Part shown: piece after piece, positions 5,795-40,416 of the stretch
Layout: every line of letters begins with the position of its first letter
Numbering within the stretch: the first letter of the stretch is position 1
Source: Clostridium sp.
Lineage (GTDB): Bacteria; Bacillota; Clostridia; Clostridiales; Clostridiaceae
DNA length: 43,050 nt
Direction of reading: 5' to 3'
Assembly: GCF_021372645.1 (NCBI RefSeq)
Contig: NZ_JAJFUC010000003.1
Span: 1-43,050 of the forward strand
Translations under genes and position numbers: made by a program
The notes under the pieces: generated by a model
Database searches by the model: none
What the model saw: the letters and a program-made list of their open reading frames with translations, nothing else
What the model was told of the DNA's origin: nothing

Positions 5795-5939
5795 CAATGG
5801 ATGATATTTCCTGCTACCACTCAAAATCCAGCCTATATACTCTACATATTATGTGTTATCTTATCTATCTATATACATACTTACTAGCAAACAAATACAC
5901 CTAAGGCGTTCAAATACCCCAGATACCTAGTGGCAATCA

Positions 5940-6065: not shown

Positions 6066-6080
6066 TTATATGTATGTATT

Positions 6081-7461: not shown

Positions 7462-7488
7462 TATCATTTGATTATAAAAAAATACTGA

Positions 7489-7527
7489 AAAAGTCGCTAA
7501 ATTCTTCAAATTAATTTAGCAACTTTT
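7489..7527 (+). terminator. Terminator after the GxGYxYP gene
   Basis: 15-base arms (7489-7503 and 7513-7527) pair with one C/A mismatch, and the 3' arm ends in TTTT. It begins 27 bases after the stop codon. Confidence 0.6.
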
Positions 7528-7535
7528 CCAATGGC

Positions 7536-7634
7536 CTAAATTTTAATTACACCTGGTGCACCATATGCTCCACCACAAACTGCTGAACATATTACATGGT
7601 CCACACCAGATGCAGAATATAGGTTACATCTTTG
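7536..7634 (-). pseudogene. Cys/Gly-rich C-terminal relic
   Basis: A short reading frame ending in TAG at 7536-7538. It encodes about 33 residues with three Cys and a Gly/Ala-rich tail (VICSAVCGGAYGAPGVIKI). No start with a ribosome binding site is seen: extending upstream runs into the hyp-operon terminator and then a stop. Either a fragment of a lost gene or a tiny peptide; family unknown. Confidence 0.25.
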
Positions 7635-7646
7635 AATTGTTATTAT

Positions 7647-7672
7647 AAAAAAAGATGTGTTCACTCACATCC
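7647..7672 (-). terminator. Terminator of the hydrogenase/hyp operon
   Basis: On the minus strand: GATGTG, loop AGTGAA, CACATC, then seven T (7653-7647). It lies about 43 bases after the hypE stop codon. A classic intrinsic terminator closing the operon. Confidence 0.85.
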
Positions 7673-7714
7673 TTTATTTTAGGTACTCAATTAGATTCAC
7701 ATTTTTCACGTGCC

Positions 7715-8716
7715 TTAACATATTCTAGGTAACATATTTCCCTCTAAAGGTGCTAATATTCTCTTTCCACAAAAACCATTTTCTATAAATATATTCCGAG
7801 TAACCCCCTCAACAAATTTGCCTATAATTCTTGCCCCTTTCCCTTGATCAATTGATTGAATTATCTTTAGTACGTTTTGTGCTTCGAACTCTTTAACAAC
7901 TAATACCATTCTTCCTTCACATGCCATATATAATGGATCCAATCCTAAAAGCTTATTGATAGTCTTAACACTTTCACTAATAGGAATTTCCTCTTCAATC
8001 AGGTGTATTCCAAGCTTGCAAAGTGAAGAAAACTCATGCAATACAGTAACTAATCCCCCGCGAGTCGGATCTCTCATTATCTTTATAGAAGTAAAATGTT
8101 CTTTAAGTTTTTCTATCAAAGGATATAATGCTGCACAATCACTTTTAAAATCACCTTTTACTTTGATGTTATATCTCTCTACAGCAATTGTTGTTCCGTG
8201 TTCACCAATTCCCCCTGTTACTATAATTCTATCTCCTGCTTCGATGGGTTTCACTTCATATCCATTTGTTATATATCCAATTCCACTAGTATTAATAAAG
8301 ACTCCATCTACACTCCCTTTTTCCACTACCTTTGTATCCCCTGTTACAATCTTAGCCCCACATTCTAGGCAGGTATGCCCCATAGATTTCACAATTTTTT
8401 CAAGCATTTGCATTGAAAATCCTTCTTCAATTATAAAACTCGCACTTAAATAAAGTGGTTTTGCTCCAGATACAGCTAAATCATTAACAGTTCCACAAAC
8501 TGCAAGCTTGCCTATGTTTCCTCCAGAAAAAAACAGTGGCTTTACCACAAAAGAATCTGTGGTAAAAGCCATTTTTCCTTGTATTGTTGTAAATGTTGCT
8601 GAATCCTGCTCTTGTAAAAGAATATTATTATTAAAATATTTGTAGAACAGTTGCTCAATTAATATTTTTGTATGTTTTCCCCCATCACCATGAATAAGCT
8701 TAATCACTTCATTCAT
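7715..8716 (-). CDS. hypE: Hydrogenase maturation protein HypE
   Basis: 333 residues, the usual HypE length. HypE dehydrates the carbamoyl group delivered by HypF onto its C-terminal Cys to a thiocyanate, the source of the CN ligands of the [NiFe] site. The chain ends in PRIC, the obligatory C-terminal Cys (Cys333). The N-terminal LIHGDGGKHT and the central GDTKVV and RDPTRGG motifs belong to the AIR-synthase/PurM-like fold that binds ATP. The ATG follows the hypD stop directly (TAGATG), with GGGAGTGG upstream. Last gene of the operon. Confidence 0.97.
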   Translation of the reverse strand: MNEVIKLIHGDGGKHTKILIEQLFYKYFNNNILLQEQDSATFTTIQGKMAFTTDSFVVKPLFFSGGNIGKLAVCGTVNDLAVSGAKPLYLSASFIIEEGFSMQMLEKIVKSMGHTCLECGAKIVTGDTKVVEKGSVDGVFINTSGIGYITNGYEVKPIEAGDRIIVTGGIGEHGTTIAVERYNIKVKGDFKSDCAALYPLIEKLKEHFTSIKIMRDPTRGGLVTVLHEFSSLCKLGIHLIEEEIPISESVKTINKLLGLDPLYMACEGRMVLVVKEFEAQNVLKIIQSIDQGKGARIIGKFVEGVTRNIFIENGFCGKRILAPLEGNMLPRIC

Positions 8717-9796
8717 CTATTCCACTCCCTTATACTTATGAAAAATAGAGCATGATCCCTCAGAGGATACCATACAAGGTCCTATTGGATGCTCTGGTGT
8801 ACAACTTTTTCCAAAAAGTTCACATTTGTTTGGCAATTTCTTTCCTAATAAAATTTCACTGCATATACAAGTTTTAATTTTACTTTTTTTTAAAGTTTTT
8901 TCTAAATTTATTCCAAATTTTTCAGTAGCATCATAATTTCTATATTTTTCTCTTAAAGAAAATCCCGAATCGTTAATAGTTCCTATTCCTCTCCATTCTT
9001 CATCACAATATGTGAATACTTCTTCCATTAGTTTATTTGCTCTTTTGTTTCCTTCTAGGGTTACACAAGTTTTATATAAATTTTTAAAATTCTTTTTAAC
9101 TTCGCCTTGTTGTTTCATTAAAAAATATAAAGCTCCAACAATATCTAAACCTTCAAAACCTGCTACTACTGCTGGAATATTATATTTATCTACAATAAAT
9201 TTAAAATAGTCTGCTCCTTTTACTGCTGCGACATGTCCTGGACAAATTAATCCCTGTATATTGTGATTAGGATCTTTAAGTATATGATGCAAGATTGGCT
9301 CCATTCTCTTCATTCCTATTAAAAAGGAAATATTTTTTATACCCTTTTCCTGTGCCATCTTTATGGCTAGAGCAATTAGAGGAGTTGTGGTTTCAAATCC
9401 TACCCCAAGAAAAATTATCTGTTTATCTTTATTTTGTTCTGCAAGTGTTATTGAATCTAAAGGAGAATATAACACTTTAATGTCTTTTCCCTTTTCTCTT
9501 TGCTCAATTAAATTTTCTCTGCTTCCATTTACTTTCATCATGTCTCCAAAGGTACTCAAAATAACATTTTGATGTTTAGAAAGCTCTATAACTGCATCTA
9601 TATAACTTTCTGAAGTAACACAAACTGGACATCCTGGCCCAGATAGTAAGTGTATTTTGGGTTCAACTAATTGTCTGATTCCTAATTTTGAGAGAGCTTG
9701 GGTATGAGTTCCGCAAACCTCCATAACATTAAAACCTCTAATTGGAGATTGCTGAATTTTTTTAATCATACCTTTAATCAAGGTTTGTTTATTCAT
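8717..9796 (-). CDS. hypD: Hydrogenase maturation protein HypD
   Basis: About 359 residues. HypD is the Fe-S scaffold that, with HypC, assembles the Fe(CN)2CO unit. Hallmarks visible are EVCGTHT near residue 30, SGPGCPVC near 60, CPGHVAAV in the middle and a C-terminal Cys cluster ending in FGKSCTPEHPIGPCMV, which together supply the [4Fe-4S] ligands and redox thiols. The ATG at 9796 is preferred (TGAGGA just upstream) over a GTG at 9808. It overlaps the hypC stop by 8 bases, consistent with coupled translation of the HypC-HypD pair. Confidence 0.97.
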   Translation of the reverse strand: MNKQTLIKGMIKKIQQSPIRGFNVMEVCGTHTQALSKLGIRQLVEPKIHLLSGPGCPVCVTSESYIDAVIELSKHQNVILSTFGDMMKVNGSRENLIEQREKGKDIKVLYSPLDSITLAEQNKDKQIIFLGVGFETTTPLIALAIKMAQEKGIKNISFLIGMKRMEPILHHILKDPNHNIQGLICPGHVAAVKGADYFKFIVDKYNIPAVVAGFEGLDIVGALYFLMKQQGEVKKNFKNLYKTCVTLEGNKRANKLMEEVFTYCDEEWRGIGTINDSGFSLREKYRNYDATEKFGINLEKTLKKSKIKTCICSEILLGKKLPNKCELFGKSCTPEHPIGPCMVSSEGSCSIFHKYKGVE

Positions 9797-10019
9797 CTTT
9801 TTCCTCACTATCTAGTATTGATTGAAATATTTTCTGTAATTCTTCAAAATAATCCTTATCAATCTTTTGAATAGCACATCCTGCATGAACTAAAACATAA
9901 TCTCCTACTTTTAGGTCTTCAATAAGTTGAACATTAACTTTACTCTCTAATCCCATAATATCTATTATTGCACTATAATTATTTACATCTATAATCTGAG
10001 CTGGCACTGCAAGGCACAT
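9789..10019 (-). CDS. hypC: Hydrogenase maturation chaperone HypC
   Basis: A 76-residue chaperone that carries the Fe(CN)2CO precursor with HypD and delivers it to the large subunit. The start is fixed by biology and sequence: HypC needs Cys as residue 2, and the ATG at 10019 gives MCLAVPAQ with GGGAGA 7 bases upstream. Longer frames from 10052 would bury this motif. The C-terminal VHAGCAIQKID is the second family signature. Overlaps hypD. Confidence 0.96.
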   Translation of the reverse strand: MCLAVPAQIIDVNNYSAIIDIMGLESKVNVQLIEDLKVGDYVLVHAGCAIQKIDKDYFEELQKIFQSILDSEEKDE

Positions 10020-10043
10020 ATATCTCCCTTCCTTCTCTATAAT

Positions 10044-10075
10044 TAGGCACATTCAAAAAAATAACAAGTCCATCT
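10044..10075 (+). repeat. Solo MITE-like terminus between hypC and hypF
   Basis: Matches the repeats at 4819-4850 and 31239-31272 (AGGCAC, ATTCAAAAAA, ATAACAAGTC). It fills most of the 59-bp gap between the hypF stop and the hypC start, so it is carried inside the operon transcript. Confidence 0.55.
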
Positions 10076-10078
10076 GCC

Positions 10079-12364
10079 TTACACTGTAAATTGTTCATTG
10101 TTTTCCATAATTGCACTTGCAACATGAAGTTGTCCAAAAGAAATTCCTCCATCATTAGTAGGAATTTGTTCATTATAAAAGACTTTAAATCCATACTTAA
10201 TTAAATTTTTATATATTTTTTTTAAAAGATATTCATTTTCAAAAACACCACCACTAAGAACAACCTTATTTATATATTCTTTTTCTCTTAACTTACATAC
10301 TAGGGCGCATGAAGATTCAATAAGTGAGTTGTGAAACTTCGAAGATATTTTAGATATTAACTCTTTTCTTTCAACGTCTTTCAATATTCCCTCTATAATT
10401 CCTTTATATTGAATATTAAAAATACCATTATCCTCTTTAATATTCCATAAATAACTTTCTTCAACTTCATCGTCAATAACATGCTCTAATTCTATTGCTG
10501 CTTGCCCATCATAAGATATATTACTTCTAATTCCGCATAGTGCTGCTACTGCATCAAACAATCTTCCAACACTAGAAGATAAAAAACAATTTACATTGGA
10601 ATTTAAGGCTTGTTTAATTACTTCAATTTTTTCATTTTTTACATTTCCAATTATTCCTAATGGATCATAACCCAAAGCATATAAATAACTTGCAGCACAT
10701 CTCCAAGGCTCTTTTATAGCTTGTTCTCCTCCTTGAATATTTACATATTCTAATTGTCCTACTCTTTTAAAAAAGCTTCTATTTCCAATAAAAAATTCTC
10801 CACCCCATACTGCTCCATCAAGTCCAAATCCAGTACCATCAAATATAATTCCAATTACAGTATCATAAATAGAGTGCTCAGCCATGCAACTAACCATATG
10901 AGCATGATGATGCTGAACTTCCACTTTTCTTATTTTCTGCTCCTTTGCATATTTAGTACTTAAATATGATGGATGCATGTCATGTACTAATAGTTCTACA
11001 TTAATATCAAATAAATTATTAAAATGTCTAATCATATATTTAAAATTCTCATAACAATCAAGTTCTCCTAAATCACCTAAATACTGACTTGAATATGCAT
11101 ATCCATTTTTAGAAATGCATATTGTATTCTTCTGTTGACCTCCAACAGCTATAATTTGTCTATTTGTATTAATTTTTATTGTATATGGAGTATACCCTCT
11201 ACCTCTTCGAATAACCCTTTCTGATTCATTTATAACTTTTACAACAGAGTCATCTTCTGGAACATAAATTTCTCTATCATGTATTAAAAAGTAATCTGCA
11301 ACTTTATTTAAATGTTTTACTACTTCTTCATTCTTATATTCCATTATCATCCCACTTATATTTCCGCTAGTCATAATTAAAAGATTTAGATTTTCATTAA
11401 ACAGGAAATGATGAAGTGGTGTATAAGGCAACATCACTCCTAAATTATTTTGCCTTGGTGCTATAATCTCTGGCAATGAAGAAGGATATTTCTTTTTTAA
11501 TATTACAATAGGTCTCTTATTACTACTTAACACCTCCTCTTCTGTATCAGATATATAGCAAATTTCTTTAACAATTCCAATATCTTTTACCATCAAAGTT
11601 AATGGTTTATCTTTTCTGTGTTTTCTACTTCTAAGGAGATTAATAGCTTGTTCATTCCTTCCATCACAAACTAGATGAAATCCCCCAATTCCCTTAATTG
11701 CTAATATTTTTCCTTCTTCAATAAGTTTAATAGTTTCTTTAATAGGATCTTCACACTGAATTTGCTCACCTTTATTATTTGTCAGAAAAAGTTTAGGACC
11801 ACATTTTTCACAGCAGTTTGGCTGCGCATGGAATCTCCTGCTTAGTGGATTATCATATTCTTTTTTACAATCTTCACACATAGAGAAATCCTCCATGGTG
11901 GTATTTTGTCTATCATATGGCAAAGCTGTAATAATCGAATACCTTGGACCACACTGAGTACAATTTGTAAAAGCATATCGAAAGCGAGATGTTCCTTTCT
12001 TTTTAATATCCTCTAAACACTTAGGACAAGTCGCTATATCAGGTGAAATAAATTTTACTTCATTTTTCTGATTAACACTTTCCTTAATCACAAATTTGCC
12101 TTTATTAATATATTTACCAATGAATAAATCATTTTTAATAGGGATACACTGAACCTTTTCTATCTTTGCAAGGTTAGGCGGCTTTTTTATAACATCTGAT
12201 ATAAAATGTTTTATATTCTCCCTCTTACCTGAACAATCAATTAATACAGCACCACCTACATTTTTAACATATCCATAGACTTTGAAATCATTTGCTTTTT
12301 TATATACAAAGGGGCGAAATCCAACCCCTTGTACAATCCCATAAATTTTTACTATATATCTCAT
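10079..12364 (-). CDS. hypF: Carbamoyltransferase HypF
   Basis: 761 residues, full length. HypF makes the CN precursor from carbamoyl phosphate and ATP and passes it to HypE. Domains in order: acylphosphatase (1-90, GIVQGVGFRPF at 9-19); two zinc-finger-like units (Cys113/116 with 135/138, and Cys163/166 with 184 or 185/188); a YrdC-like nucleotide-binding domain (about 205-390, KGIGGFHL); and a Kae1-like domain with HHHAHMVSCMAEH and DGTGFGLDG. All catalytic motifs look intact. It lies between the HypA-like gene and hypC on the same strand. Confidence 0.97.
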   Translation of the reverse strand: MRYIVKIYGIVQGVGFRPFVYKKANDFKVYGYVKNVGGAVLIDCSGKRENIKHFISDVIKKPPNLAKIEKVQCIPIKNDLFIGKYINKGKFVIKESVNQKNEVKFISPDIATCPKCLEDIKKKGTSRFRYAFTNCTQCGPRYSIITALPYDRQNTTMEDFSMCEDCKKEYDNPLSRRFHAQPNCCEKCGPKLFLTNNKGEQIQCEDPIKETIKLIEEGKILAIKGIGGFHLVCDGRNEQAINLLRSRKHRKDKPLTLMVKDIGIVKEICYISDTEEEVLSSNKRPIVILKKKYPSSLPEIIAPRQNNLGVMLPYTPLHHFLFNENLNLLIMTSGNISGMIMEYKNEEVVKHLNKVADYFLIHDREIYVPEDDSVVKVINESERVIRRGRGYTPYTIKINTNRQIIAVGGQQKNTICISKNGYAYSSQYLGDLGELDCYENFKYMIRHFNNLFDINVELLVHDMHPSYLSTKYAKEQKIRKVEVQHHHAHMVSCMAEHSIYDTVIGIIFDGTGFGLDGAVWGGEFFIGNRSFFKRVGQLEYVNIQGGEQAIKEPWRCAASYLYALGYDPLGIIGNVKNEKIEVIKQALNSNVNCFLSSSVGRLFDAVAALCGIRSNISYDGQAAIELEHVIDDEVEESYLWNIKEDNGIFNIQYKGIIEGILKDVERKELISKISSKFHNSLIESSCALVCKLREKEYINKVVLSGGVFENEYLLKKIYKNLIKYGFKVFYNEQIPTNDGGISFGQLHVASAIMENNEQFTV

Positions 12365-12391
12365 ATTTTAAAGACCTTCTTCTATGTTATT

Positions 12392-12652
12392 CTAATTTTC
12401 ACTTTGTTCTCCTTGAATGCTTCTAAGAATAGCAGTTTGATCCTGTATATCTTCCCTCTGTACATTAATCTTTGTCCATTCTCCAACTAAATTTCCATAA
12501 GCATGTTGAAGATGGTCATAAAGATTGTCCGAATGTACATGACTTCTATGGTTTACAATAACAGTAAATGTATTAACTTTATTAATATTATTAGCTGTAC
12601 ATATTTCCTTTAATTCCTCAGAAATCTTACTTAATAAAATAGTATCATGCAT
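12392..12652 (-). CDS. HypA-like protein lacking the zinc domain
   Basis: An 86-residue protein in the position hypA often holds. It starts MHD, keeping the His2 used by HypA for nickel with Asp in place of Glu3, and shows a HypA-like alternating pattern (ISEELKEI, then VNTFTVIVNH, then LYDHLQHAYG). HypA is normally about 115 residues with four Cys for zinc. Here there is only one Cys (near residue 18) and the C-terminal part is polar and short. It may be a reduced nickel chaperone or an unrelated operon protein. Upstream AAGGGA is 12 bases from the ATG. Confidence 0.5.
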   Translation of the reverse strand: MHDTILLSKISEELKEICTANNINKVNTFTVIVNHRSHVHSDNLYDHLQHAYGNLVGEWTKINVQREDIQDQTAILRSIQGEQSEN

Positions 12653-12669
12653 ATTTTTTCACTATCCCT

Positions 12670-13137
12670 TCATTTATTTTTTATCATAGATTTTTTTATT
12701 TTATCTAAAATCTCTTTAGAGATGACTTCTAATTTTTCTTGTAACACAGAACTTAATCCAAAACCAAATTCAACTTCTTTAACCTCAATTGCATAAATTT
12801 CTCCTTTAACACTAGGATAATAAAGTTTTAATAAATCTATAAAACTATAATTATGCTGTGAATTTCCTTTTTTCTTAGAAACAAAAGTATTCAATGGCAA
12901 GCAAGTAATTTCACCTGACTCCTTTCCATAATATGCTGCATCTAAAACAAAAATATAATCACCTTCTTGTATATTAGAAATTCCATATTGAACATCAGTT
13001 TCAGCGTAAATAACTTCAATTCCTCTTTCTAAAAGTCTTTCTTCTATACCTTTTGCTACTTCAATTCCTATAGCATCATCTTTCATTAAAACATTTCCCA
13101 TCGCTATAACCTTAATATTAGAGTTTCTATTTATCAT
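12670..13137 (-). CDS. hyaD: [NiFe] hydrogenase maturation endopeptidase (HyaD/HybD family)
   Basis: 155 residues, standard length. The protease clips the C-terminal tail of the large subunit once nickel is in place. Metal-sensing residues match HybD: Asp21 in the GNVLMKDDAIG motif (Glu16 in HybD), Asp66 in VLDA (Asp62) and His95 (His93). The target tail of 15 residues is visible in the large subunit immediately upstream in the operon. The gap of 144 bases after the large-subunit gene holds no other gene. Confidence 0.92.
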   Translation of the reverse strand: MINRNSNIKVIAMGNVLMKDDAIGIEVAKGIEERLLERGIEVIYAETDVQYGISNIQEGDYIFVLDAAYYGKESGEITCLPLNTFVSKKKGNSQHNYSFIDLLKLYYPSVKGEIYAIEVKEVEFGFGLSSVLQEKLEVISKEILDKIKKSMIKNK

Positions 13138-13281
13138 AATATCTATTTCTCCACTTTCTATAGATACACCAATTATAAGTTTAATTTGTACTTCGAAATA
13201 TATACCACTACAGAGTATTCCTTCTTTCGGCGAGTTATCACATAAGTATGATTTTCAACTTGTTTATCTATACATATGTTT

Positions 13282-14673
13282 TCAAACTAAAACCTCTACT
13301 ATTTCTGTATCACCTGTGCTTCCAATTAAATGAGTTGCACAAGATACACAAGGATCAAATGATCTTACAATCCGTCCAATTTCTATGGGTTCTTTAATAT
13401 TATTTAATTTAGTTCTAATTAAAGCTCTTTCAATAGTTCCAGGAAGATTTGATTGATCTTTAGGCGATAAATTCCATACAGTAGGTGTTATGATATTGTA
13501 ATGATTAATAACCTTATTTTCAATTGCAATCCAATGTCCAAGGGCACCTCTAGTAGTATCTATGAGACCTATCCCATAAGCCTTTTCTGGAATATCATAG
13601 ACCTTTTGATTATTGGGTTTTAGCTCTATTCTCTCAGTAAGATTCTTCATTATTTCTAGTATCTTTCCTGTTTCTAACACCCTTGCAATATTTCTATCCA
13701 TACAGGAATGTCCATTTGTGTATTCTCCACTGATGATTAACCGCGCTAAAGGACCAACCTCCATAGGCATACCTAAATAACGAGGAGCTTTTATAAAAGT
13801 ATATGCATCTAATTTAGATAAATCCACTTCCTCTAGTTCTTCATCTTTCTTATACCATGAATAATGAATTTGTTCTGTAATTTTATCTGGTTCTAAAGGA
13901 TATTTAACATTATCCTTGATTACTCCTGGTTTAACATAAGTAATCTCTGGATCTTCATATTTATCAAAAACACCATAGCTCATGAAATATGGATAAGATA
14001 TTCCCTTTTTAAAATAATCAGGATAATATTTAGAGATGATTTCTACATCTTCTTTCATTGTAGTTGTTACAAAAGATTGTATATTTTTAATGATGCTTTT
14101 TACCTTTTCTAATTTATATGCATCTATATTTACTGTAACTCCCCCTACAAAAATGCCATGACTGTGAGGAGCTTTTCCGCCAAGAATTGCAAGTCCTTCA
14201 TGAGCTAATCTACTAAGCTCAATACTTTTAACATAATGTTCTTCTATTTTTTTATTTATTTTTTCTGAAAGTCTATAATCACTATACTGCTCTGCTCCTA
14301 CCAATTTTACATTAGAAATTTTCACATAACTTGGCATAGAAAGTAGATAAAAATGTCTTAAGTGATTTTGTACGAATTCAAAACCATGCATAATATCTCG
14401 AATGTAACTATCATTTAAACTAACTGTTATTTTTAATGCATCTTCTAATGCTAAGGTGGAAGCCATGGCATGAGCTGTAGAGCATATTCCACAAATTCTC
14501 TCTGTAAAATATACAGCATCTAAAGGTGATCTTCCTTTTAACATTTTTTCAAATCCTCTAAAAAGCAATCCACTTGCATTTGCTTCTACAATTGTATTCT
14601 TCTTTACTTTTGCTTTTATTTCTAAAAACCCACTAATTCTTGTAACTGGATCAATAGTAATTGTTTTACTCAT
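13282..14673 (-). CDS. [NiFe] hydrogenase large subunit
   Basis: 463 residues carrying the Ni-Fe active site that splits or makes H2. The four nickel Cys are in RICGIC (Cys61, Cys64) and DPCVSC (Cys442, Cys445), and CATH with His448 follows, so the protease should cut after His448 and release 15 residues. IDPVTRISG at 7-15 is the N-terminal signature. The ATG at 14673 is chosen because GGAGGA lies 4 bases upstream and it overlaps the small-subunit stop as ATGA; the frame is open to 14733 but that part is inside the small-subunit gene. Shorter than Tat-exported group 1 enzymes (about 550-600). Confidence 0.97.
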   Translation of the reverse strand: MSKTITIDPVTRISGFLEIKAKVKKNTIVEANASGLLFRGFEKMLKGRSPLDAVYFTERICGICSTAHAMASTLALEDALKITVSLNDSYIRDIMHGFEFVQNHLRHFYLLSMPSYVKISNVKLVGAEQYSDYRLSEKINKKIEEHYVKSIELSRLAHEGLAILGGKAPHSHGIFVGGVTVNIDAYKLEKVKSIIKNIQSFVTTTMKEDVEIISKYYPDYFKKGISYPYFMSYGVFDKYEDPEITYVKPGVIKDNVKYPLEPDKITEQIHYSWYKKDEELEEVDLSKLDAYTFIKAPRYLGMPMEVGPLARLIISGEYTNGHSCMDRNIARVLETGKILEIMKNLTERIELKPNNQKVYDIPEKAYGIGLIDTTRGALGHWIAIENKVINHYNIITPTVWNLSPKDQSNLPGTIERALIRTKLNNIKEPIEIGRIVRSFDPCVSCATHLIGSTGDTEIVEVLV

Positions 14674-30520: not shown

Positions 30521-31219
30521 TTATCCTAACGACTCAAGTATAAATTTGTTTAATTCATCTCTAACAATTCTCCAATTAGGATAATATTTATCCATTAGTT
30601 CTTTAAACTTTTCATTGTGTGTTCTTTCAATTAAGTGTATCATCTCGTGAACAATAACATATTCCAAGCAGTTAGGTGGTCTTTTTACAAGTTGTAGATT
30701 TAACCAAATCCTACTATCTTCTTGGTTACAGGTTCCCCATTTAGTTCGCATGATTCGTACACCCCATGCTTTAACTTCTACACCTATTATTGGCTCCCAT
30801 TTTTTTATTAATTCTGGAATCCTGTTTTTTATTTGATTTCTATACCACCTATTTAATATTCTTTCTCTTTGTTCTAATGTAGTTTCTTTTTTTACATGGA
30901 GATTTATATATCTTTTATTTTCTATTTCTACTTTGGAATATCCATTGTGTTCTATTATTCTAAGCAAATATCTTTCTCCCCATAAATAGTAACTTTCACC
31001 AGAAACATATTCACGTTTCGATTGTCGTTCTTGGGAAATAAATTTTTCTTTTTGTTTTTTTATCCAACTAAGCTTAGACACAATTAGTAAACGAATATTT
31101 TCATCTGTAGTATGAATAGGTGCTGCCACCCTTACTCTTCCATCAGGAGGATATACTCCTAGATGGATATTCTTAATATGTTTTTTTAAAACCTGTATCT
31201 CTATACCATTTACTATCAT
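30521..31219 (-). CDS. YgjP-like (DUF45) metallohydrolase
   Basis: 232 residues of the YgjP/SprT-like zinc metallopeptidase family. The site is HEMIHL (HExxH) in the C-terminal third, followed by RTHNEKFKELMDKYYP. WGVRIMRTKWGTC and INLHV are further family signatures. Genes of this family are commonly found next to type I restriction systems, as here (hsdR lies upstream on the same strand beyond a MITE-like element). Role in that setting unknown. Confidence 0.85.
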   Translation of the reverse strand: MIVNGIEIQVLKKHIKNIHLGVYPPDGRVRVAAPIHTTDENIRLLIVSKLSWIKKQKEKFISQERQSKREYVSGESYYLWGERYLLRIIEHNGYSKVEIENKRYINLHVKKETTLEQRERILNRWYRNQIKNRIPELIKKWEPIIGVEVKAWGVRIMRTKWGTCNQEDSRIWLNLQLVKRPPNCLEYVIVHEMIHLIERTHNEKFKELMDKYYPNWRIVRDELNKFILESLG

Positions 31220-31238: not shown

Positions 31239-31513
31239 AAGGTATATTCAAAAAATAATAAGTCAGCATGATAGTCTATTTCCCGTCATGGAAGCTCGAC
31301 TCGCATACACTTCCTGAGTAAGCGATTCACTCAGAATCACAGATTGCACTGTGTGAAAGTTCGAGAAGCCAAATATAAAATTTGGACTCTCACTTTTGGC
31401 TCTCTGCTTATCAGCATTTTTACCTAATAGACTCGCTATGAGGCAAAAATACTTCCTTGTCTGACAGGAAATATACATCACATCATAGACTTATTATTTT
31501 CCTTCATATGCCT
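31239..31513. mobile_element. MITE-like element with terminal inverted repeats
   Basis: About 275 bp. The left end AAGGTATATTC and AAAATAATAAGTC is inverted at the right end (AGGCATATGAAGG and AAAATAATAAGTC read on the minus strand). The interior has a very different composition from its surroundings, several local stems (for example CTGAGT/ACTCAG near 31310-31335), and no transposase. A 72-codon minus-strand frame inside it (31263-31481) is not convincing as a gene. Its right end meets the hsdR stop codon and its left end lies 20 bases from the YgjP gene start. Solo ends occur at 4819-4850 and 10044-10075. Confidence 0.65.
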
Positions 31514-34500
31514 AATACTCATTTTGCTGTACTATAATTTCATAAATCTTTTCAAATAGTTCATCATCTTCTATGTGTTTTTTTATTAACTTTTTAACTT
31601 TTCTTTCTTTCATTGTATTGCCTCTCCAACTATCAGGACTATATGAAACAATATCTTCATGTAAGTTTTCGGCAATTTCTTCATCTCCAATATTATCAAA
31701 AAGTGCTCTTAGTGCAGGAGATTTTTTCATTGATTCAGAATACTGTGATGAATTTTCAGGATGCTTAGACTTCTTAGTAAGATCAGCTATTTTATCAAGG
31801 TATTCTTTATAGTTAATTACAGCTTCTTTTCTTTCTCTTATTATTTCATCTAATAACTCCGACATTTTTTCGAAATATTTTGGATTAGTTGGTGTTTCAT
31901 CTATAATTAATTTTCTAACGTTATTTTCAATTGTTTCTGCAACTGTTTCCTTATTTTTCTTTATATCATTTGGTAAGCTATCAACAAACTCTGCACCTTT
32001 ACTAACAACAATATCTATAAGCGACATATCATCAAAAGCTGATATAACTTCACTTTCCTTTGCATCAATATAAGTATCGATTAAATGTCTCATAGCTGGC
32101 TCATATGCTTTTAAATCTATATAATCACCACTTGCTAATTTGACTTCAGAACGTATTTTTTCATAATAGGTAACTTGAGTTTTTATCATCCTAGCTTCAT
32201 CTGGTGTATATCCTGCCTTAATCATTTCATTAGCTATATTGGAATATGCTCTTATAAGTGAAGATACCATTTTATATAATGCAACCCTTTTAGATTCATT
32301 TTCTTTTAAGTCTTCCCTATTTTCAGTATTTCTAGCACAGAAATATTTAATAAACTGTTGTGTTTCCCTTGGATATTCAACTGGTTCACAAAGAGCTTGT
32401 ACACTTTCTAATGCTTCATCTAGTTTTTCTTTTGCGAGTGTTAATCTATTTTTAAGTAATCCTTCTACATCTGACTTTTCATACTTATCAAATGCATCTG
32501 TAGTATAATCACCCATTGCACTTTCAAGGCTATTAAATAAGTCTTTATAATCTATAATATATCCAAATTCCTTATCTTCTCCATCTAATCTGTTTACTCT
32601 ACATATAGCTTGGAATAATCCATGATCTCGCATACTTTTATCAATGTATAAGTAAGTTGCTGGAGGTGCATCAAATCCTGTTAATAGTTTGTCTACTACT
32701 ATTAATAGTTTCATTTGAGCAGGCTCTTTAATAAACTTTTCTTTTACTTCCTTTTCGAACTCTTCTGTTTTTTTACCATTGAGCATTTTATTATATATAT
32801 CATATTTTTTTAGTTTTTCTGTTGCACCTTCATCTCCAGTAGTTTCACCTTTTATGTCATTAATATTTGGTGTATATGAAGTTACTATTGCGCATTTTTT
32901 AAATCCATGGCTTAAAAATATTTCATAGTATTTACATGCTTCATAAATACTACCTGCTACAAGCATTGCATTTCCTCTTCCATTTTGCAAACGATCTTTT
33001 GTTGCCATGTCAAAAATTATATCTGCTGCAATTTTTTCAAGTCGTGATTTAGAACTAAAAACACTCTGTAATGTACCCCAACGTTTTTTAAGCTGGGCAA
33101 GCGCAACATCTGTAAGTCCACTAGTTTTAGAATCGAACCATTGGTCAATTTTAGCTTGTGATGTTATATTTTGATCTACATCTCTTGCTTCATATCTTAA
33201 ATCTAATACTACTTTATCTTTAACTGCCTCATCAAATTTATACTTATGGATATAATCTCCAAATACTTCTCTGCTGCTTTGCTTATCTTCTTTTAAAAGA
33301 GGAGTACCAGTAAAACCAATAAATAATGCATTAGGTAATATCTTTTTCATAGCTTCATGCAATTTTCCTGATTGGGTTCTATGACATTCATCTACAAAAA
33401 CATATAAATCTCCTTTAGCTGAAAAGTCTTTAGGTAAATTTAATTTCATTTCTTCTAAGAAATCATCATAAGCCTTGTCTTCTTTTTTACCAAACTTGTG
33501 TATTAAGGAGCATATTAATCTTGGTGTTGTAGCATTCAATTTTTCAATTAAGTCTGCACCACTTATGGTTCTATAAATATCTTCTTCTACACCTTTATAT
33601 ACTTTTTCTATTTGCTCATCCAATTCTTCTCTATCTGTAATAACAAGAACTCTGGCATTATTCTTATTTTCCATTATCCATTTTGTAAGCCAAACCATAG
33701 TTAAACTCTTACCACTACCTTGAGTATGCCAAATGATACCACCTTCACGTTTTTTAACATTAGCTTGAGCTGCCCTTACACCAAAATATTGATTAGGTCT
33801 ACATGCTTTTTTTATACCTCTATCAAAAACAATGAAATCATGAATTATTTCTAGAAGCCTTTCTTTATTGCACAATCCAATTAAATGTTTGTGTAATAAA
33901 TTTTCGGTATTCTCGCAAAGTTTTTTCACGTGAACAGAAACATTATCTTCAGCTTCTTTATCTTCTTTCCAGGTAAGGAAATACTTTTCAGAAGTTTTTA
34001 TAACTCCATATTTTACCCCTTGAGTATCATTCCCCGCCATAACTAACTGAATAGTATTAAAAAATGATTTTATAAAAGTATCTTTTTGATTATCAAGATT
34101 TTGACGGATACCTTCAGATATAGAAACTGTACTGCGCTTTAGCTCAATGATTCCTAAAGCTATTCCATTAACATATAAAACTAAATCAGGTCTTTTAATA
34201 TTATTTCCTTTTACAGTAACCTCTTCTGCTATATAAAAATCATTGTTAAGCGGTTCATCAAAATCAATAAACTCAACTGTTTTAGGCTTATCACTACTAC
34301 TAAGTTTTTTTCTAACTCCATACCTAAGCAATGTGTAAACTTCTTTATTAACTTCATACAAAGTTTTAGATTGATTTCCCGCTGTTTTTATTAATTCAGC
34401 TATAGCTAAAGTTATAAGTTCAGTATCATAACCTTTTTTATTTAAATATAATCTCAATAACTTTTCATTAATATTAGTATTTTCAAACTCTTTCAAGTTA

Positions 34501-34586
34501 CCTAAATAACTATATCCTAGCTTTTCAACAAACAAGTTAATAACATTATTTTGAGTAACACGTTCTCTTTCCCCTACCCCACTCAT
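31512..34586 (-). CDS. hsdR: Type I restriction endonuclease subunit R (HsdR)
   Basis: About 1024 residues. An N-terminal PD-(D/E)xK nuclease site is visible at Asp134, Glu148 and Lys150 (RPDLVLYV, IIELK). The helicase motor has Walker A HTQGSGKS (287-294), DECH (399-402), TGTPL and later SF2 motifs. A C-terminal helical region binds the methylase core. Start at ATG 34586, giving MSGVGERERVTQ as in relatives; a TTG at 34604 is the outer limit. The stop codon TAG overlaps the edge of the MITE-like element. HsdR cuts unmethylated DNA after ATP-driven translocation. Confidence 0.95.
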   Translation of the reverse strand: MSGVGERERVTQNNVINLFVEKLGYSYLGNLKEFENTNINEKLLRLYLNKKGYDTELITLAIAELIKTAGNQSKTLYEVNKEVYTLLRYGVRKKLSSSDKPKTVEFIDFDEPLNNDFYIAEEVTVKGNNIKRPDLVLYVNGIALGIIELKRSTVSISEGIRQNLDNQKDTFIKSFFNTIQLVMAGNDTQGVKYGVIKTSEKYFLTWKEDKEAEDNVSVHVKKLCENTENLLHKHLIGLCNKERLLEIIHDFIVFDRGIKKACRPNQYFGVRAAQANVKKREGGIIWHTQGSGKSLTMVWLTKWIMENKNNARVLVITDREELDEQIEKVYKGVEEDIYRTISGADLIEKLNATTPRLICSLIHKFGKKEDKAYDDFLEEMKLNLPKDFSAKGDLYVFVDECHRTQSGKLHEAMKKILPNALFIGFTGTPLLKEDKQSSREVFGDYIHKYKFDEAVKDKVVLDLRYEARDVDQNITSQAKIDQWFDSKTSGLTDVALAQLKKRWGTLQSVFSSKSRLEKIAADIIFDMATKDRLQNGRGNAMLVAGSIYEACKYYEIFLSHGFKKCAIVTSYTPNINDIKGETTGDEGATEKLKKYDIYNKMLNGKKTEEFEKEVKEKFIKEPAQMKLLIVVDKLLTGFDAPPATYLYIDKSMRDHGLFQAICRVNRLDGEDKEFGYIIDYKDLFNSLESAMGDYTTDAFDKYEKSDVEGLLKNRLTLAKEKLDEALESVQALCEPVEYPRETQQFIKYFCARNTENREDLKENESKRVALYKMVSSLIRAYSNIANEMIKAGYTPDEARMIKTQVTYYEKIRSEVKLASGDYIDLKAYEPAMRHLIDTYIDAKESEVISAFDDMSLIDIVVSKGAEFVDSLPNDIKKNKETVAETIENNVRKLIIDETPTNPKYFEKMSELLDEIIRERKEAVINYKEYLDKIADLTKKSKHPENSSQYSESMKKSPALRALFDNIGDEEIAENLHEDIVSYSPDSWRGNTMKERKVKKLIKKHIEDDELFEKIYEIIVQQNEY

Positions 34587-34605
34587 ATTCATCGCTTCTT
34601 TCAAC

Positions 34606-35115
34606 TTATATTTCGTCTATATTGATTTCTTTAAATCTTTCTTTCCATTCATCAATACTAAGCACTTCAAATTTTGAAAGCATTTCTCTAACAATACTAT
34701 CCTCTTTTAAATTCAATGGTAATTGCTTTCCTATTTTTATTCTTAATTGTTTTCTTATTTTAGCATCCATAATTGGTGCTTCTATTAATAGCACATATAT
34801 TATTGGAAATTCATCTTTATTTCCACCAGTTGCCCAAAGCATCATTAAGCTATCATAATATTTCTTTGCGATATTTTTATAAAACTTCTCTGGATCTCTC
34901 TTTATTTTATCAACAAATGCATTAGGATTAACTGCATCTTTAATATTAGCATTCTTATATTCTAAAAAAATTATGTTATTATTGTATTCTGTTATAAAGT
35001 CTACGTCATTTAATTTCATTTTATTAGCCAAATCATGTAATTCCATAACATATTTGCAATTAGTAAAATCAAACTTAAATTGATTATTTTCATCAGTTAC
35101 TATTTTTGATTCCAT
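34606..35115 (-). CDS. Small PD-(D/E)xK nuclease-like protein in the hsd operon
   Basis: 169 residues, family not recognised. The pattern NDVDFITEYNNNIIFLEYKN (Asp37 or Asp39, then Glu52-x-Lys54) with predicted strand-turn-strand is a minimal PD-(D/E)xK nuclease core. The rest is helical, Lys-rich, and ends with SIDEWKERF. It follows the AAA ATPase gene by 5 bases and precedes hsdR by about 19, so ATPase and nuclease are almost certainly co-translated. No toxin-antitoxin signature. A small effector nuclease of the neighbouring ATPase is the simplest reading; a restriction accessory is the alternative. Confidence 0.6.
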   Translation of the reverse strand: MESKIVTDENNQFKFDFTNCKYVMELHDLANKMKLNDVDFITEYNNNIIFLEYKNANIKDAVNPNAFVDKIKRDPEKFYKNIAKKYYDSLMMLWATGGNKDEFPIIYVLLIEAPIMDAKIRKQLRIKIGKQLPLNLKEDSIVREMLSKFEVLSIDEWKERFKEINIDEI

Positions 35116-35120
35116 AAAAT

Positions 35121-36131
35121 TTACTCCTCAAAGTTTCCCTCAATTACCTCATCTAATAGCTTTGCATCAGCTTCAATAATTGAGTTGTTTTTAAGCTCAC
35201 CAAAATTCTCTTCACTTTGACACTTAACACCTTGTTCTGTTTTATATAAACTATGGAATAAAACTTTATCATTGGAATTTCTCTTTATTTCAAAATATTT
35301 AGCAAAATTATAACTATGGGTTGCCAAAAAGATTTGTACGCCACATCTCTGCAATTCTATCAATATATCAACTAATATTGGCATTAATTCTGGATTAATA
35401 TTAGCCTCCGGTTCATCCCAAAATAAAATTGTCTCATTATCAATTAATCCATTTCGTATAAGCTTCCACAAAAGAGCAAACTTACGAATACCTTCAGCTT
35501 CAATTGAAAAATCTATTTTACTGCCATCGTTCTTAACTACATAAAAATTATCATATTCACAAACTACTTCCCCATCAATTACTTTTGAAAGTATTTTTAA
35601 AATTTTCTTATTAATTTCAGATACATCCTTAGCTTCTGGCAATTCAGCATTTGTAATAATATCTACATAAGTTTTATCAAATGGCATATCGTATTTATTA
35701 TTTAATGCTAAAAATCCGTTTGAATGAGATAGTATTTCTTTTGCTGGTATAAAAATATCATTAATAGCAAAATCAATGTCCTTATATCCTGAACCATCAC
35801 CGGCTAATTTCATACCTTCATGTTTTATAATCACATATTTTGCATAACTATCTTTTAAATAATTTACTGTTATCGATGTTTCTTTATCTATACTGCTTTT
35901 ATCTCTAACTAAATCCATTGAATTTACTTTGAAATAAGGCTGAGATATATCATATGCTCCATTACTTTTATTCACATTATTTGCACTTTCACAAACTCCA
36001 TATACCCCCTTTAATAAATGAGTTTTTCCAGTACCATTATTTCCAATTATGATATTAATGCCTAAAGATACATCTAATTCAAAATCATCAAATACAGTAA
36101 AATTCTTTATATTAACACTTTTAATATTCAT
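35121..36131 (-). CDS. AAA/SMC-type ATPase in the hsd operon
   Basis: 336 residues of the AAA_21/OLD-like ABC ATPase class. Walker A GNNGTGKT at 30-37, a signature-like AEGIRKFALLWKL near 212-224, Walker B with WDEPEAN (238-244) and switch His272 (LATHSYNF). No Toprim domain follows, unlike OLD nucleases. It lies between hsdS (26-bp gap) and the small nuclease-like gene (5-bp gap). ATPases in this position are called RloA-like in Campylobacter type I loci, and ATPase-nuclease pairs act in Septu- and PARIS-type defence. Here the partner differs from both. Confidence 0.8.
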   Translation of the reverse strand: MNIKSVNIKNFTVFDDFELDVSLGINIIIGNNGTGKTHLLKGVYGVCESANNVNKSNGAYDISQPYFKVNSMDLVRDKSSIDKETSITVNYLKDSYAKYVIIKHEGMKLAGDGSGYKDIDFAINDIFIPAKEILSHSNGFLALNNKYDMPFDKTYVDIITNAELPEAKDVSEINKKILKILSKVIDGEVVCEYDNFYVVKNDGSKIDFSIEAEGIRKFALLWKLIRNGLIDNETILFWDEPEANINPELMPILVDILIELQRCGVQIFLATHSYNFAKYFEIKRNSNDKVLFHSLYKTEQGVKCQSEENFGELKNNSIIEADAKLLDEVIEGNFEE

Positions 36132-36157: not shown

Positions 36158-37444
36158 CTAAACTAATCTCCTCTTTCCTGTTAATAATTCTTCCATCATT
36201 CCTCTTTTGATATTCTTGTATTTATCAAGCTTTGTTTCTAGTTTTTCTATTTCATTATCCATATCTGATAAGATGTTTGCTATTGCTTTTTGTTCTTCTA
36301 TCGTTGGAATTGGTATTAGTGTATTTTTAAATACATCCATTCCAACTAAGTTTTTCATTGCCCCACCTTGTGTACTATCTATTATTCTATTTTGAAATTT
36401 GTACCAACTGAAATAAGAATTAAAATAAGAATCATCTACTATAGTACTATCAATTTTAATTTTTAGTAATGCTTGATTAATAACACCTTTTGGCGCATTA
36501 TTAGGAATTTTATATATCTTGCCTATTGTTCCTGAACAGCTAACAATAAACTCACCTACATTCACTTCAAATCTAATAAGTTCATTATATTTTTCTTGGT
36601 TAATATAGTAATTTCCTATATTTAAATCCTTATATATAGCATTTCTTTGTTCATACACCTTATATCCCTTTTTTACAAAAAACTCCTTCTTTAAGCTACC
36701 ACCAAATGGTCCTCTTACAAGACCATTTGGAACACATATAGAACTTAAACTCATTAAATTCCAATCTTCAGGAATAATTCCCACCTCTGTTTTTTTGTAT
36801 CCTTCAGTATTTTTATTTTCTTTATATCTTCTTCCTGATTTTTCACTAAATCCATCTAATCTCTTTTTCCCTGTTAAAAGTTCTTGCATAGCGCCTTGTT
36901 TTATTAACTTCTTTTTATTTATTAGTTTTTCAAGAGATAAAATCAAATCGTCTATATCGCTAAGTGCTGTTGCTATAGCTTTTTGCTCCTTTTCTAATGG
37001 TATAGGAATTTTCATTTTAGAAATCATTTCAAGTCTAACAGAATCTACTGATGATTTTGCTGTATATTTTGATACTTGGTTTAAAAAATTATTCTTAAAA
37101 TATTCATAAAAATACCTACCATTAACATTTTTAAAGTTACTTATTTTATATACTCTTTGATGGTAGTCAAATTTTCCACTAATGTAATGAAATACCTTCC
37201 CAACACCTACACCATCTCCTGCTGTTAATACCGCCTCACCATCAAAAGAATATGAATTTATTTTCTCGATTTGCTTGGATCTTACAAAAAAATCATATTT
37301 TCCACTATCTTCTTTGTCTTCAGTGTTTCTCTTACCTGTATCTATTTCAGCAAACTGATCCACATTTCTAATATCCCAATCACTTGGTATGATCCCTACT
37401 TCTGTTTCCTTATATCCATCCGGAATTTTCTTTTCTCTTACCAT
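36158..37444 (-). CDS. hsdS: Type I restriction specificity subunit S (HsdS)
   Basis: 428 residues with two target-recognition domains and two conserved helical repeats. Each half starts with the same signature (GYKETEVGIIPSDW near 10; GYKKTEVGIIPEDW near 215) and ends with EQKAIA, then LSDID or LSDMD, then a coiled coil and LLTGKKRL or LLTGKRRL. The complex should recognise a bipartite site set by the two variable regions. It overlaps the hsdM stop by 7 bases. The near-repeat of both halves makes recombination and specificity switching possible. Confidence 0.95.
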   Translation of the reverse strand: MVREKKIPDGYKETEVGIIPSDWDIRNVDQFAEIDTGKRNTEDKEDSGKYDFFVRSKQIEKINSYSFDGEAVLTAGDGVGVGKVFHYISGKFDYHQRVYKISNFKNVNGRYFYEYFKNNFLNQVSKYTAKSSVDSVRLEMISKMKIPIPLEKEQKAIATALSDIDDLILSLEKLINKKKLIKQGAMQELLTGKKRLDGFSEKSGRRYKENKNTEGYKKTEVGIIPEDWNLMSLSSICVPNGLVRGPFGGSLKKEFFVKKGYKVYEQRNAIYKDLNIGNYYINQEKYNELIRFEVNVGEFIVSCSGTIGKIYKIPNNAPKGVINQALLKIKIDSTIVDDSYFNSYFSWYKFQNRIIDSTQGGAMKNLVGMDVFKNTLIPIPTIEEQKAIANILSDMDNEIEKLETKLDKYKNIKRGMMEELLTGKRRLV

Positions 37445-39885
37445 TGAAATCCCATCCTTTTTAAATGTTCATCTACCTTGCTTGTTAATTCTTCTACTTC
37501 TGCTTCTATTTGTGACATTGGCTCATCATATCTTTCAGCAAGTTCAACAATTCTTCCTGTTAAAGATTGTGATATGCCATCTAATAATTCTTCAATAGCT
37601 TCTGATAATACTTTCATCCACTTATCTTGTATAACAATCTCTTTTATTTCCTCTTCAGATAACTCCTTATATTTAATCATAACTTTTTTATCTAATGCTT
37701 CTTTTAATTCCTTAATTTTTTTATCTTTTCCTGAAATTTCTTCTACAAACTTTAAATATTTGTTTAAAACTTCAAGCTCGTCTTCGTAACCATGTAACTT
37801 TTTAATTTCTTTAATTCTTTTTGTAAGATTAGCCTTTGAAATTTTGTTATCATTAATTACTTCAGAAAGTAACCCTTCATCTCCGCCATGTTCTTCTATC
37901 ATTTCTTCTTGATTTCTGACTAATTCATCTTTTTCTGCTTCTAAGCAATTTATTTTTTCTTGTTCATCATCAAAATATCTATTTATAATTAAATTCTTTA
38001 GAATTAATTTACCTTCATAATCCTTTGGTTTGTCTGAACGTTTTATAGTTCCATCTTTCTTTTTGGTCTCTGTATAAATTAACTCAAATTCATTTCCAGC
38101 TTTCCAACCATCTGAAACAATTAAATAAATATCATCATGCATAGTTTCATTCCAATATGACATTAATGCTTGATATACATCATATTCATTTATCAATTTA
38201 ACACTCTTAAAGTTTTCTAATATATCTTCTGAAATAGCCTTTATAACTTCTCTTGGTTTACTATCATCGCAAATGTTATTTAATATATGAGTATTATTTG
38301 TTTTCCAATTATTAAAAACATCATTAACTTTTTCCTGATGTTCTATAAATTCATTATGTGTAAATATACTTTCTTTTATATCATCTTCTAAAACATTCAA
38401 TTTTGAATAATTTTCTCTATTGCCTTGAGAAAATAAAACTTTCCTTAAGGTCGGATATACTTCCCAATAATCATTTAACTTATCAATGTCTCTATTAGGT
38501 ATTCCTCCTAATAAATGTGATGAAATATCTTGAAGATCTTCTTCTTCACTTGAATCTATATATCTTGGGATATTAAGATTATATTCATTATCCTCTGCTA
38601 TTTCTTGAATAGTTACCATACGACTATACTTAGGAATCTCCAATTGTTTTTCAAATACATCTACAATCTTATGAATATCTTGATCTCTTAATCTATTTTT
38701 ATTTCCATCTTTAACAAATCCTTTACTAGCATCTATCATAAAAATGCCCTTACGTGATTCTGCATTTTCTTTATCAATTACAATTATGCATGCTGGTATA
38801 CCTGTTCCATAAAAAAGGTTGGCAGGTAATCCTATGATTCCTTTTATTAAACCCTTTTTAATTATATTAGTTCTTATAGCTTCCTCTGCATTACCTCTAA
38901 AAAGTACACCATGAGGCAATATAACAGCAGCCTTTCCATCAGCTTTCAATGATTTAATTATGTGTAATAAAAATGCATAATCACCATTTTTATCTGGTGG
39001 TGCTCCAAATTCTTTAAATCTCTCATATGTTTCCCCACCAACATCTACTCCATTACTCCATGATTTGGTAGAAAATGGAGGATTGGCCACAGCAAAATTA
39101 AATCTTCTTAATTTACTTGAATCATTTTCATCTTTAAAATATGGAGTTGATAATGTGTTATCTTGCCATATTTCAGCTGTTTCCTTACTATGCATAATCA
39201 TATTCATTTTAGCTAAAGCTGCAGTTGCATTATCCATTTCTTGACCATAGATTGTAACATTACAATTAGCTTCATCTGCTACTTTTACAAGTAATGAACC
39301 ACTTCCACAAGTTGGATCATATACTGTAATTGAACCTTCTTTTAAATTTCCAATTCCAATTACTTTTGAGAGTACTCTTGAAACCTCGGCAGGAGTGTAA
39401 AATTGTCCCTTACTCTTACCTGATTCAGTAGCAAAGTTACGCATTAAATATTCATAAGCATCACCTAATAAATCATCACCTTCTGCTTTATTGCTACTAA
39501 AATTCATTTTATCATCTTGAAATATAGCAATAAGATTAGTCAATTTATCAACCATTTCTTTTCCTTTTCCAATCTTATCACTATCATTAAATGAAGCTAA
39601 ATCAATTACTCCTCTTAAATCATTAGCTTCAGCAAGTTTTGCAACAATCTTATCCATTTCTTCTCCGATATTGCTCTTTCCTTTTGCAGAAATCATATCA
39701 TCAAAGCTACCACCTTCAGGTACTTCTATTAAAAAATCTTCATCTACTTTGCTTTTATCTGAAACATACTTTACGAAAAGTAAAGTCAATATGTAATCTT
39801 TATATTGTGAGGCATCCATTCCACCTCTTAATTCATCACAACTTTTCCATAGCGAACTATATAATTCACTCTTTTTAATAGCCAT
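37438..39885 (-). CDS. hsdM: Type I DNA methyltransferase subunit M (HsdM)
   Basis: 815 residues from the ATG at 39885 (GGAGG 7 bases upstream). An N-terminal HsdM bundle (SLWKSCDELRGGMDASQYKD), SAM-binding DPTCGSG at 190-196 and catalytic NPPF at 268-271 define an N6-adenine methylase. The C-terminal approximately 350 residues add a long charged, coiled-coil-rich region that makes it larger than classical HsdM (about 500-530). First gene of the M-S-ATPase-nuclease-R operon. A 234-bp AT-rich gap to the HNH fragment holds its promoter; no clear -35/-10 pair is called. Confidence 0.95.
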   Translation of the reverse strand: MAIKKSELYSSLWKSCDELRGGMDASQYKDYILTLLFVKYVSDKSKVDEDFLIEVPEGGSFDDMISAKGKSNIGEEMDKIVAKLAEANDLRGVIDLASFNDSDKIGKGKEMVDKLTNLIAIFQDDKMNFSSNKAEGDDLLGDAYEYLMRNFATESGKSKGQFYTPAEVSRVLSKVIGIGNLKEGSITVYDPTCGSGSLLVKVADEANCNVTIYGQEMDNATAALAKMNMIMHSKETAEIWQDNTLSTPYFKDENDSSKLRRFNFAVANPPFSTKSWSNGVDVGGETYERFKEFGAPPDKNGDYAFLLHIIKSLKADGKAAVILPHGVLFRGNAEEAIRTNIIKKGLIKGIIGLPANLFYGTGIPACIIVIDKENAESRKGIFMIDASKGFVKDGNKNRLRDQDIHKIVDVFEKQLEIPKYSRMVTIQEIAEDNEYNLNIPRYIDSSEEEDLQDISSHLLGGIPNRDIDKLNDYWEVYPTLRKVLFSQGNRENYSKLNVLEDDIKESIFTHNEFIEHQEKVNDVFNNWKTNNTHILNNICDDSKPREVIKAISEDILENFKSVKLINEYDVYQALMSYWNETMHDDIYLIVSDGWKAGNEFELIYTETKKKDGTIKRSDKPKDYEGKLILKNLIINRYFDDEQEKINCLEAEKDELVRNQEEMIEEHGGDEGLLSEVINDNKISKANLTKRIKEIKKLHGYEDELEVLNKYLKFVEEISGKDKKIKELKEALDKKVMIKYKELSEEEIKEIVIQDKWMKVLSEAIEELLDGISQSLTGRIVELAERYDEPMSQIEAEVEELTSKVDEHLKRMGFQW

Positions 39886-40013
39886 TTTGTTTCCTCCACT
39901 CATACATTATGTATAACTTTTGTATTTATCTACTATATATTTTATTATAATTATAACATTTATTTTTACATAATCTAACTTTAACTTAATTACATATAGA
40001 TTTTTCATATTCT

Positions 40014-40119: not shown

Positions 40120-40416
40120 TTATCTTTTAATTACTTCTATCAATTTTTCAACTGATAAATCATCATTTTTACTATGAATTACAGTATGACAATTGGAACA
40201 TAAAGGAATTAAACCATTTATTGGATCAATCTTATAATTTTCTCTTATCTCACTTAAGGCCTTTTTATGATGCACTTCAATTATTCCTTTTCCTAATTCA
40301 CCATAAGCCTTCTCAAAATCAAATCCACAAACTGCACATTTATATCCATAATGATCTAAACATATTTTTCTTGCTTTTCTGCTTCTTTCATATTTATTTA
40401 CATTCACCTTTAGCAT
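40120..40416 (-). pseudogene. 5'-truncated HNH endonuclease
   Basis: 98 codons forming just the C-terminal HNH domain: YERSRKARKICLDHYGYKC, CGFDF, a YGELG loop, EVHHKKALSEI and LCSNCHTVIHS, with four Cys for zinc and the catalytic HH. In larger relatives (McrA-like) the YERN/S-KAR segment is preceded by a DNA-recognition domain. Here the ATG abuts a 17-bp dispersed repeat (40417-40433) with no ribosome binding site, so the 5' part was lost at a repeat-mediated junction. A working mini-HNH cannot be excluded. Confidence 0.6.

Follow-up and report, generated by a model that had tools for sequence, protein, structure and literature searches.

Do two extra genes that separate hsdS from hsdR in a type I restriction-modification (RM) operon serve restriction, or do they form a defence system of their own? 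The question is raised by a stretch of 43,050 nucleotides from Clostridium sp. (positions 1 to 43,050 of contig NZ_JAJFUC010000003.1, assembly GCF_021372645.1), the whole of which is called here the window. A preliminary description, made from the letters alone, had noticed two tightly packed genes in this position, and both are indeed there on the minus strand, each with an ATG start. The first (35121..36131) codes for an ABC/AAA_21 ATPase of 336 amino acids (aa) and the second (34606..35115) for a 169-aa protein, a predicted PD-(D/E)xK nuclease. Both assignments draw on the open reading frame (ORF), on PADLOC models, on conservation and on an AlphaFold2 (AF2) model, that of the ATPase also on Pfam. 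Taken together, the data make it probable that the pair is an autonomous, infection-triggered defence cassette, in which the ATPase would control the putative nuclease, and that it has docked in the hsd operon.

By their model matches, the two genes are the candidate defence system HEC-02, already catalogued in PADLOC-DB v2. The ATPase matches the HEC-02A model PDLC04213 (E value 2.6e-114, residues 1-334 of 336) and the small protein the HEC-02B model PDLC04217 (E 2.2e-77, residues 1-169), so that the match covers nearly the full length of both and the ORFs are not chance ones. The two genes are separated by 5 bases, which agrees with the adjacency that HEC-02 calls for. HEC stands for 'Hma-embedded candidate' and goes back to the guilt-by-embedding work of Payne and colleagues, as cited in parts of PMC12988326, PMC10855318 and PMC11411939; antiviral activity is stated for several HECs, HEC-06 included, in a portion of PMC12988326. 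In contrast to the Hma locus of that name, the host of the window pair is a type I restriction operon. Searches of the main texts of papers brought up at most general mentions of HECs and no experimental test of HEC-02. Two PADLOC labels look interchanged when set beside those of the remaining HEC-02 models: PDLC04145, named 'HEC-02A', matches the small proteins, and PDLC04146, named 'HEC-02B', matches the ATPase.

Relatives were collected with the ATPase model at a cut-off of E up to 1e-30. Matches were obtained in 9 of 398 genomes of a phylum sample, in 23/206 of the window's family, and in 4/9 and 22/151 genomes of two other families; with the overlaps among these searches removed, 56 different places remain, the window being one of them. 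Both genes were intact and abutting in 38 of the 56 (39/56 by script, before L104, which has a stop in frame, was moved by hand to the class of broken nucleases). In the 37 intact places outside the window, the nuclease match starts 8-43 bases past the stop of the ATPase gene. Nine places have an intact ATPase gene with a damaged or absent nuclease gene, one (L047) shows the reverse, neither gene is intact in seven, and in one the contig ends. Thus, the co-occurrence in other genomes, on which the preliminary description had made its proposal depend, was found, and this comparison of genomes shows that the two genes move as a unit. In phage records there was no relative of the small protein, in plasmid records a single weak one. 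Viral contigs gave no match to alignments of close relatives of the nuclease, and one match of 18 residues when the single protein was the query; the ATPase alignment led there to eight loci, some of them weak, five of which had an adjoining hidden Markov model match to the small protein. A viral structure library yielded nothing better than E 0.007. By eye, the HEC-02 genes of L043, L044 and L045 lie amid surface-sugar and flagellin genes; in L044 there is an in-frame TAG in the ATPase match, and no nuclease gene was found.

The imbalance among the broken copies bears on one rival explanation, a toxin-antitoxin-like addiction module in which the small nuclease would be the toxin, the ATPase its antitoxin, and defence secondary. 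The ATPase stands alone in nine places and the nuclease in one (8 versus 1 without L044), as an addiction module might leave them. However, the 56 places were picked by their ATPase match, and therefore the count is biased. A search that started from the nuclease matched 10 of 194 genomes (a second nuclease-model search, with 9/194 in the order sample, brought no further place and is not counted), and the only one of the ten that has no ATPase, G174, holds a nuclease fragment beginning at residue 43. This genome carries a decayed copy (L020, 10001-10381, and L025): the small protein is 93% identical and matches only from that residue, the ATPase model finds no match in the genome, and there is no intact ATPase gene beside the fragment in L025. 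In L047, moreover, an intact small gene persists next to an interrupted ATPase gene. We consider an addiction module very improbable.

The first gene had been described as coding for an OLD/AAA_21-like ATPase, and the comparisons bear this out. Pfam gives AAA_21 (5.2e-18) and AAA_15 (2.7e-14), the PADLOC AriA model also matches (E 2.4e-19), and a PtuA-type ATPase is among the best solved-structure matches of the ATPase profile. The AF2 model (predicted local distance difference test, pLDDT, 68.6; predicted template modelling score, pTM, 0.74) has Rad50, PtuA and SMC heads as its structural matches. An alignment and a tree were built from 46 of the 56 places, L114 being omitted by hand and L047, L052, L108, L109, L110, L123, L124, L125 and L126 because of short or split matches. 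Invariant columns of this alignment support GNNGTGKT (30-37), EAEGIRK (211-217), D239/E240 and H272; the first three we take to be the Walker A motif, a signature-like motif and Walker B. The residues Asp239 and Glu240, singled out beforehand, are thus invariant in 46/46 sequences. A Pfam scan detected no Toprim domain in the 336 residues. As far as sequence and model comparisons go, these data show an intact ABC ATPase of the Rad50/PtuA/AriA-like kind.

The small protein is likewise intact, and its alignment with relatives shows a conserved D-ExK-K core, the Asp...Glu-x-Lys part of which had been noticed earlier. In an alignment of 41 sequences (L029 and L105 were omitted, their matches being too short), the E52 column has 40 E and one D, K54 and K85 are K in all 41, and the D39 column has 25 D, 15 E and one gap; two different alignments gave the same result for these four columns. 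W157 was 41/41 in one alignment and only 23/41 in the other, and because the two disagree its conservation is not claimed. In the AF2 model (pLDDT 78.3, pTM 0.78), with strands at 40-44 and 47-55, the D...(D/E)xK residues fall on a beta hairpin, and by Foldseek and VIA comparison the predicted fold resembles that of PD-(D/E)xK nucleases. A non-nuclease fold, which would have spoken against the initial proposal, was not found, although the resemblance to nucleases is moderate. We infer that the small protein is a PD-(D/E)xK nuclease, its activity being predicted. The protein has no Pfam match of its own; DUF6661 is matched by 4 of its 41 relatives, and a literature search turned up no paper naming this family. 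Among solved structures, a single-sequence search gave no convincing relative (best E 0.46), nor did a profile search, whose best match was 8bao, a DUF1887 family protein (E 0.033). Two other kinds of effector were tried and rejected: no HNH match appeared in the small protein (Pfam, E up to 1), nor in any of the 41 aligned sequences at E up to 0.1, and no Toprim or DUF4435 match in either by Pfam scan.

The expectation that this effector differs from those of known ATPase-effector pairs was therefore upheld as regards the HNH of Septu and the Toprim of PARIS. Septu pairs an ATPase with a small effector gene. The ABC ATPase of Septu and of retron Ec78 (PtuAB) is related to that of the window; their effector PtuB is an HNH protein, whereas the window effector is a D-ExK protein. 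PARIS (AriA-AriB) likewise joins an AriA-like ATPase to an effector nuclease, which in the window is predicted, but AriB belongs to Toprim/DUF4435. In OLD and in GajA of Gabija the Toprim domain is fused to the ATPase, unlike in the window.

Is the pair, then, bound to the operon in which it lies? Same-strand hsd genes or fragments occurred within 2 kb in 17 of the 56 places and none was found in the other 39, so that the pair exists both with and without hsd genes, as the search proposed in the preliminary description was meant to establish. The proportion was 14/23 in the window's family and 3/33 outside that family; since several contigs end near the pair, these counts of places with hsd genes are lower bounds. 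The nearest relatives of the window hsdR, L149 (65% identity) and L150 (64%), whose hsdM are 62% and 60% identical and which also share the YgjP gene, have an empty slot, with hsdR starting one base after the hsdS stop. In L151 to L154, too, neither an ATPase nor a nuclease gene lies between hsdS and hsdR. The nearest relative that has both genes is L021 (ATPase 71%, nuclease 57%); here the pair lies directly 3' of hsdS, four other genes separate it from hsdR, and HsdM and HsdR of the host operon are 28% and 24% identical to those of the window in the aligned parts. Because the operon of L021 is unrelated and the nearest hsd operons are without the pair, the pair is a cassette whose movement does not depend on the operon that hosts it.

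The ATPase tree agrees with such movement. L021 and L099 group with the window in a single clade (Shimodaira-Hasegawa-like approximate likelihood ratio test, SH-aLRT, 99), and on this quick tree the hsd context changes at least five times. Other insertion positions were also observed: the pair lies between hsdM and hsdS in L125, and in L101 and L102 it is preceded by hsdS and followed by an integrase-like gene and a second hsdS, an arrangement shared by L104, L105 and L107 with the nuclease broken or lost. The tyrosine-recombinase-like gene (by eye) and second hsdS of these five loci resemble a specificity-switching locus. In the window, the cassette fits cleanly from the hsdS stop to the hsdR start. 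These comparisons show that the cassette passes from one type I operon to another, unrelated one and that it occurs outside such operons too. No convincing flanking repeats marked mobile-element ends around the cassette. A junction pattern was considered as an insertion signature and discarded: it occurs 8 times in the window, where 3.9 would be expected, and shuffled sequences reached 8 in 5 cases out of 100.

The same counts weigh on a second rival explanation. The preliminary description had likened the pair to PrrC with EcoprrI, as a back-up that fires when restriction is blocked. In this form, the pair would be a PARIS- or PrrC-like second line of defence: it would sense that the type I enzyme is inhibited (by an anti-restriction protein such as Ocr or Stp) and then fire the nuclease to kill or arrest the cell. 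PrrC, in contrast to the two-gene pair, is a single protein. The portion of PMC12707154 that concerns them calls PrrC and PARIS RM guardians, and PrrC a tRNA anticodon nuclease. The window pair is encoded within a type I operon, as a guardian would be, hsd genes are near by in 17 of the 56 places and in 14 of the 23 of the family, and the ATPase is AriA-like. Against this, no hsd gene was found within 2 kb in 39 places, only 3 of 33 outside the family have one, and the pair sits in unrelated hsd families. If it guarded restriction, a type I enzyme should also be found in carriers whose pair lies outside hsd operons. HsdM_N was present in 6/9 stand-alone carriers versus 104/182 non-carriers of the window's family (p 0.74) and in 18/19 versus 92/129 of a second family (p 0.027). 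Pooled, the figures are 24/28 versus 196/311 (p 0.021), a weak association, uncorrected for kinship, genome quality and general defence richness; one carrier with HsdM_N, G600, lies outside that sample and was not counted. Four of the 28 (G039, G132, G067 and G610) gave no HsdM_N match anywhere in the genome, with the same result in a repeat search. As a general rule, the back-up role is thus not supported, while the weak genome-wide association speaks for it, and we regard it as unlikely. Somewhat less probable still is a hsdS-hsdR junction that would be a dedicated guardian dock, where HEC-02 and other ATPase-nuclease cassettes, such as the AAA_15/OLD-like gene of this genome's second type I operon, are swapped because they keep watch on the type I enzyme or on what inhibits it. 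To our knowledge, HEC-02 as a guard with a PD-(D/E)xK effector would be the first of its kind.

The junction also receives other cargo. Among more distant hsdR relatives (L155-L159), a TIR protein (PDC-S66, 5.6e-101) lies between hsdS and hsdR on the opposite strand in L157 (4972-5832), and an ORF similar to it by eye, also on the opposite strand, in L159; L158 has a DUF3800 protein (PDC-M04A) at 8129-8842, and the slots of L155 (9890-10282, 130 aa) and L156 (5088-6890, 600 aa) hold ORFs with no Pfam or PADLOC match. By eye, the L156 ORF resembles a 600-aa ORF of L101 (5932-7734), also without such a match. The window's genome itself has a second type I operon (L172, G000:C36:5000-22000, 3333-13400), in which hsdM and hsdS are followed by a 655-aa AAA_15 ATPase, hsdR, a 225-aa ORF and a YgjP metallopeptidase; the ATPase in the slot has a weak OLD-like Toprim match (E 0.0088), under the cut-off.

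Comparable positions have been published. In a type I island of enteropathogenic E. coli (EPEC), DarTG2 occupies the place between hsdS and hsdR, with an M48-family metallopeptidase gene downstream where the window has a YgjP-like one; unlike the window pair, it is an ADP-ribosylating toxin-antitoxin pair preceded by the regulator RptR (PMC12255303, in part). TgvAB, also a two-gene defence system, is embedded in the type I operon of V. cholerae VPI-2 and is common outside such operons too, but is GmrSD-like (DUF262/DUF1524) and so of another family; it protects alone, and the whole cluster still protects with HsdR inactivated (sections of PMC11411939). Extra genes inside type I loci are further exemplified by PrrC in EcoprrI and by RloA/RloB of Campylobacter, the latter being named genes of a C. 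jejuni RM region in a section of PMC2928727 and likened here by position, not by sequence. All this cargo in relatives, in the second operon and in the published islands would suit a third rival explanation, which keeps only the docking part of the autonomous cassette and claims no mechanism: the junction would be a recombination slot for any defence module, and the pair merely co-transcribed, with no tie to restriction. The rate of 14/23 in one family, on the other hand, may also reflect selection for co-expression, and we hold this passive reading, too, to be unlikely. In any case, position in an hsd operon is by itself no demonstration of a functional link with restriction.

We therefore return to the autonomous cassette and to how it might act. 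The ATPase would oligomerise, hold the nuclease inactive and act as the infection sensor. Altered nucleotides, DNA ends or a phage protein may be the trigger, upon which the ATPase would license or release the nuclease. The latter would then halt infection by cutting nucleic acid, whether DNA of the phage or of the host or else tRNA, as in PtuAB and AriAB, and the place in the hsd operon would give co-expression and a frequently used docking place.

Several points weigh against this proposal. The nuclease activity and substrate of the small protein are read from its sequence and its model, for which the best Foldseek E value in the PDB is 0.016 and the VIA Z score is below 8, a range that the tool calls common. 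Lassa-type cap-snatching endonucleases are among the Foldseek matches. Such enzymes cut RNA, and therefore DNA stays a putative substrate. The intact small gene beside an interrupted ATPase in L047 counters a strict dependence on the ATPase as antitoxin, and the pooled excess of type I systems among stand-alone carriers would be compatible with some functional coupling. Finally, tgvAB alone was 10- to 100-fold less protective than the whole cluster against several phages (part of PMC11411939), which means that an embedded position can have an effect, be it only on expression.

The rest of the operon, all on the minus strand, is that of a type I system. hsdM (37438..39903; N6_Mtase 5.5e-103, HsdM_N 2e-14, Pfam) codes for the methyltransferase and hsdS (36158..37444; Methylase_S 1.7e-31) for the specificity subunit; the latter forms the upstream border of the cassette, 26 bases before the ATPase gene. 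The restriction subunit gene hsdR (31512..34592, stop at 31512; HSDR_N 7.4e-36, TIGR00348 2.2e-164) has its first ATG 13 bases after the small-gene stop. From the sequence, this ATG at 34592 is the likely start, the TTG at 34604, the first start given by the ORF tool, being less favoured. A YgjP-like metallopeptidase gene (30521..31219; PF01863 8.1e-62) lies 3' of hsdR, as do YgjP-type ORFs in 15 related operons (L149-L163). Just upstream of hsdM, a small HNH protein of 98 aa is encoded at 40120-40416 (minus strand; PF01844 2.6e-6).

For the HEC-02 family, these data bring an ATPase class and a catalytic core that can be put to the test (D39/E52/K54/K85). That the cassette hops from one type I operon to another, unrelated one at the hsdS-hsdR junction makes, in turn, guarding versus docking directly testable.
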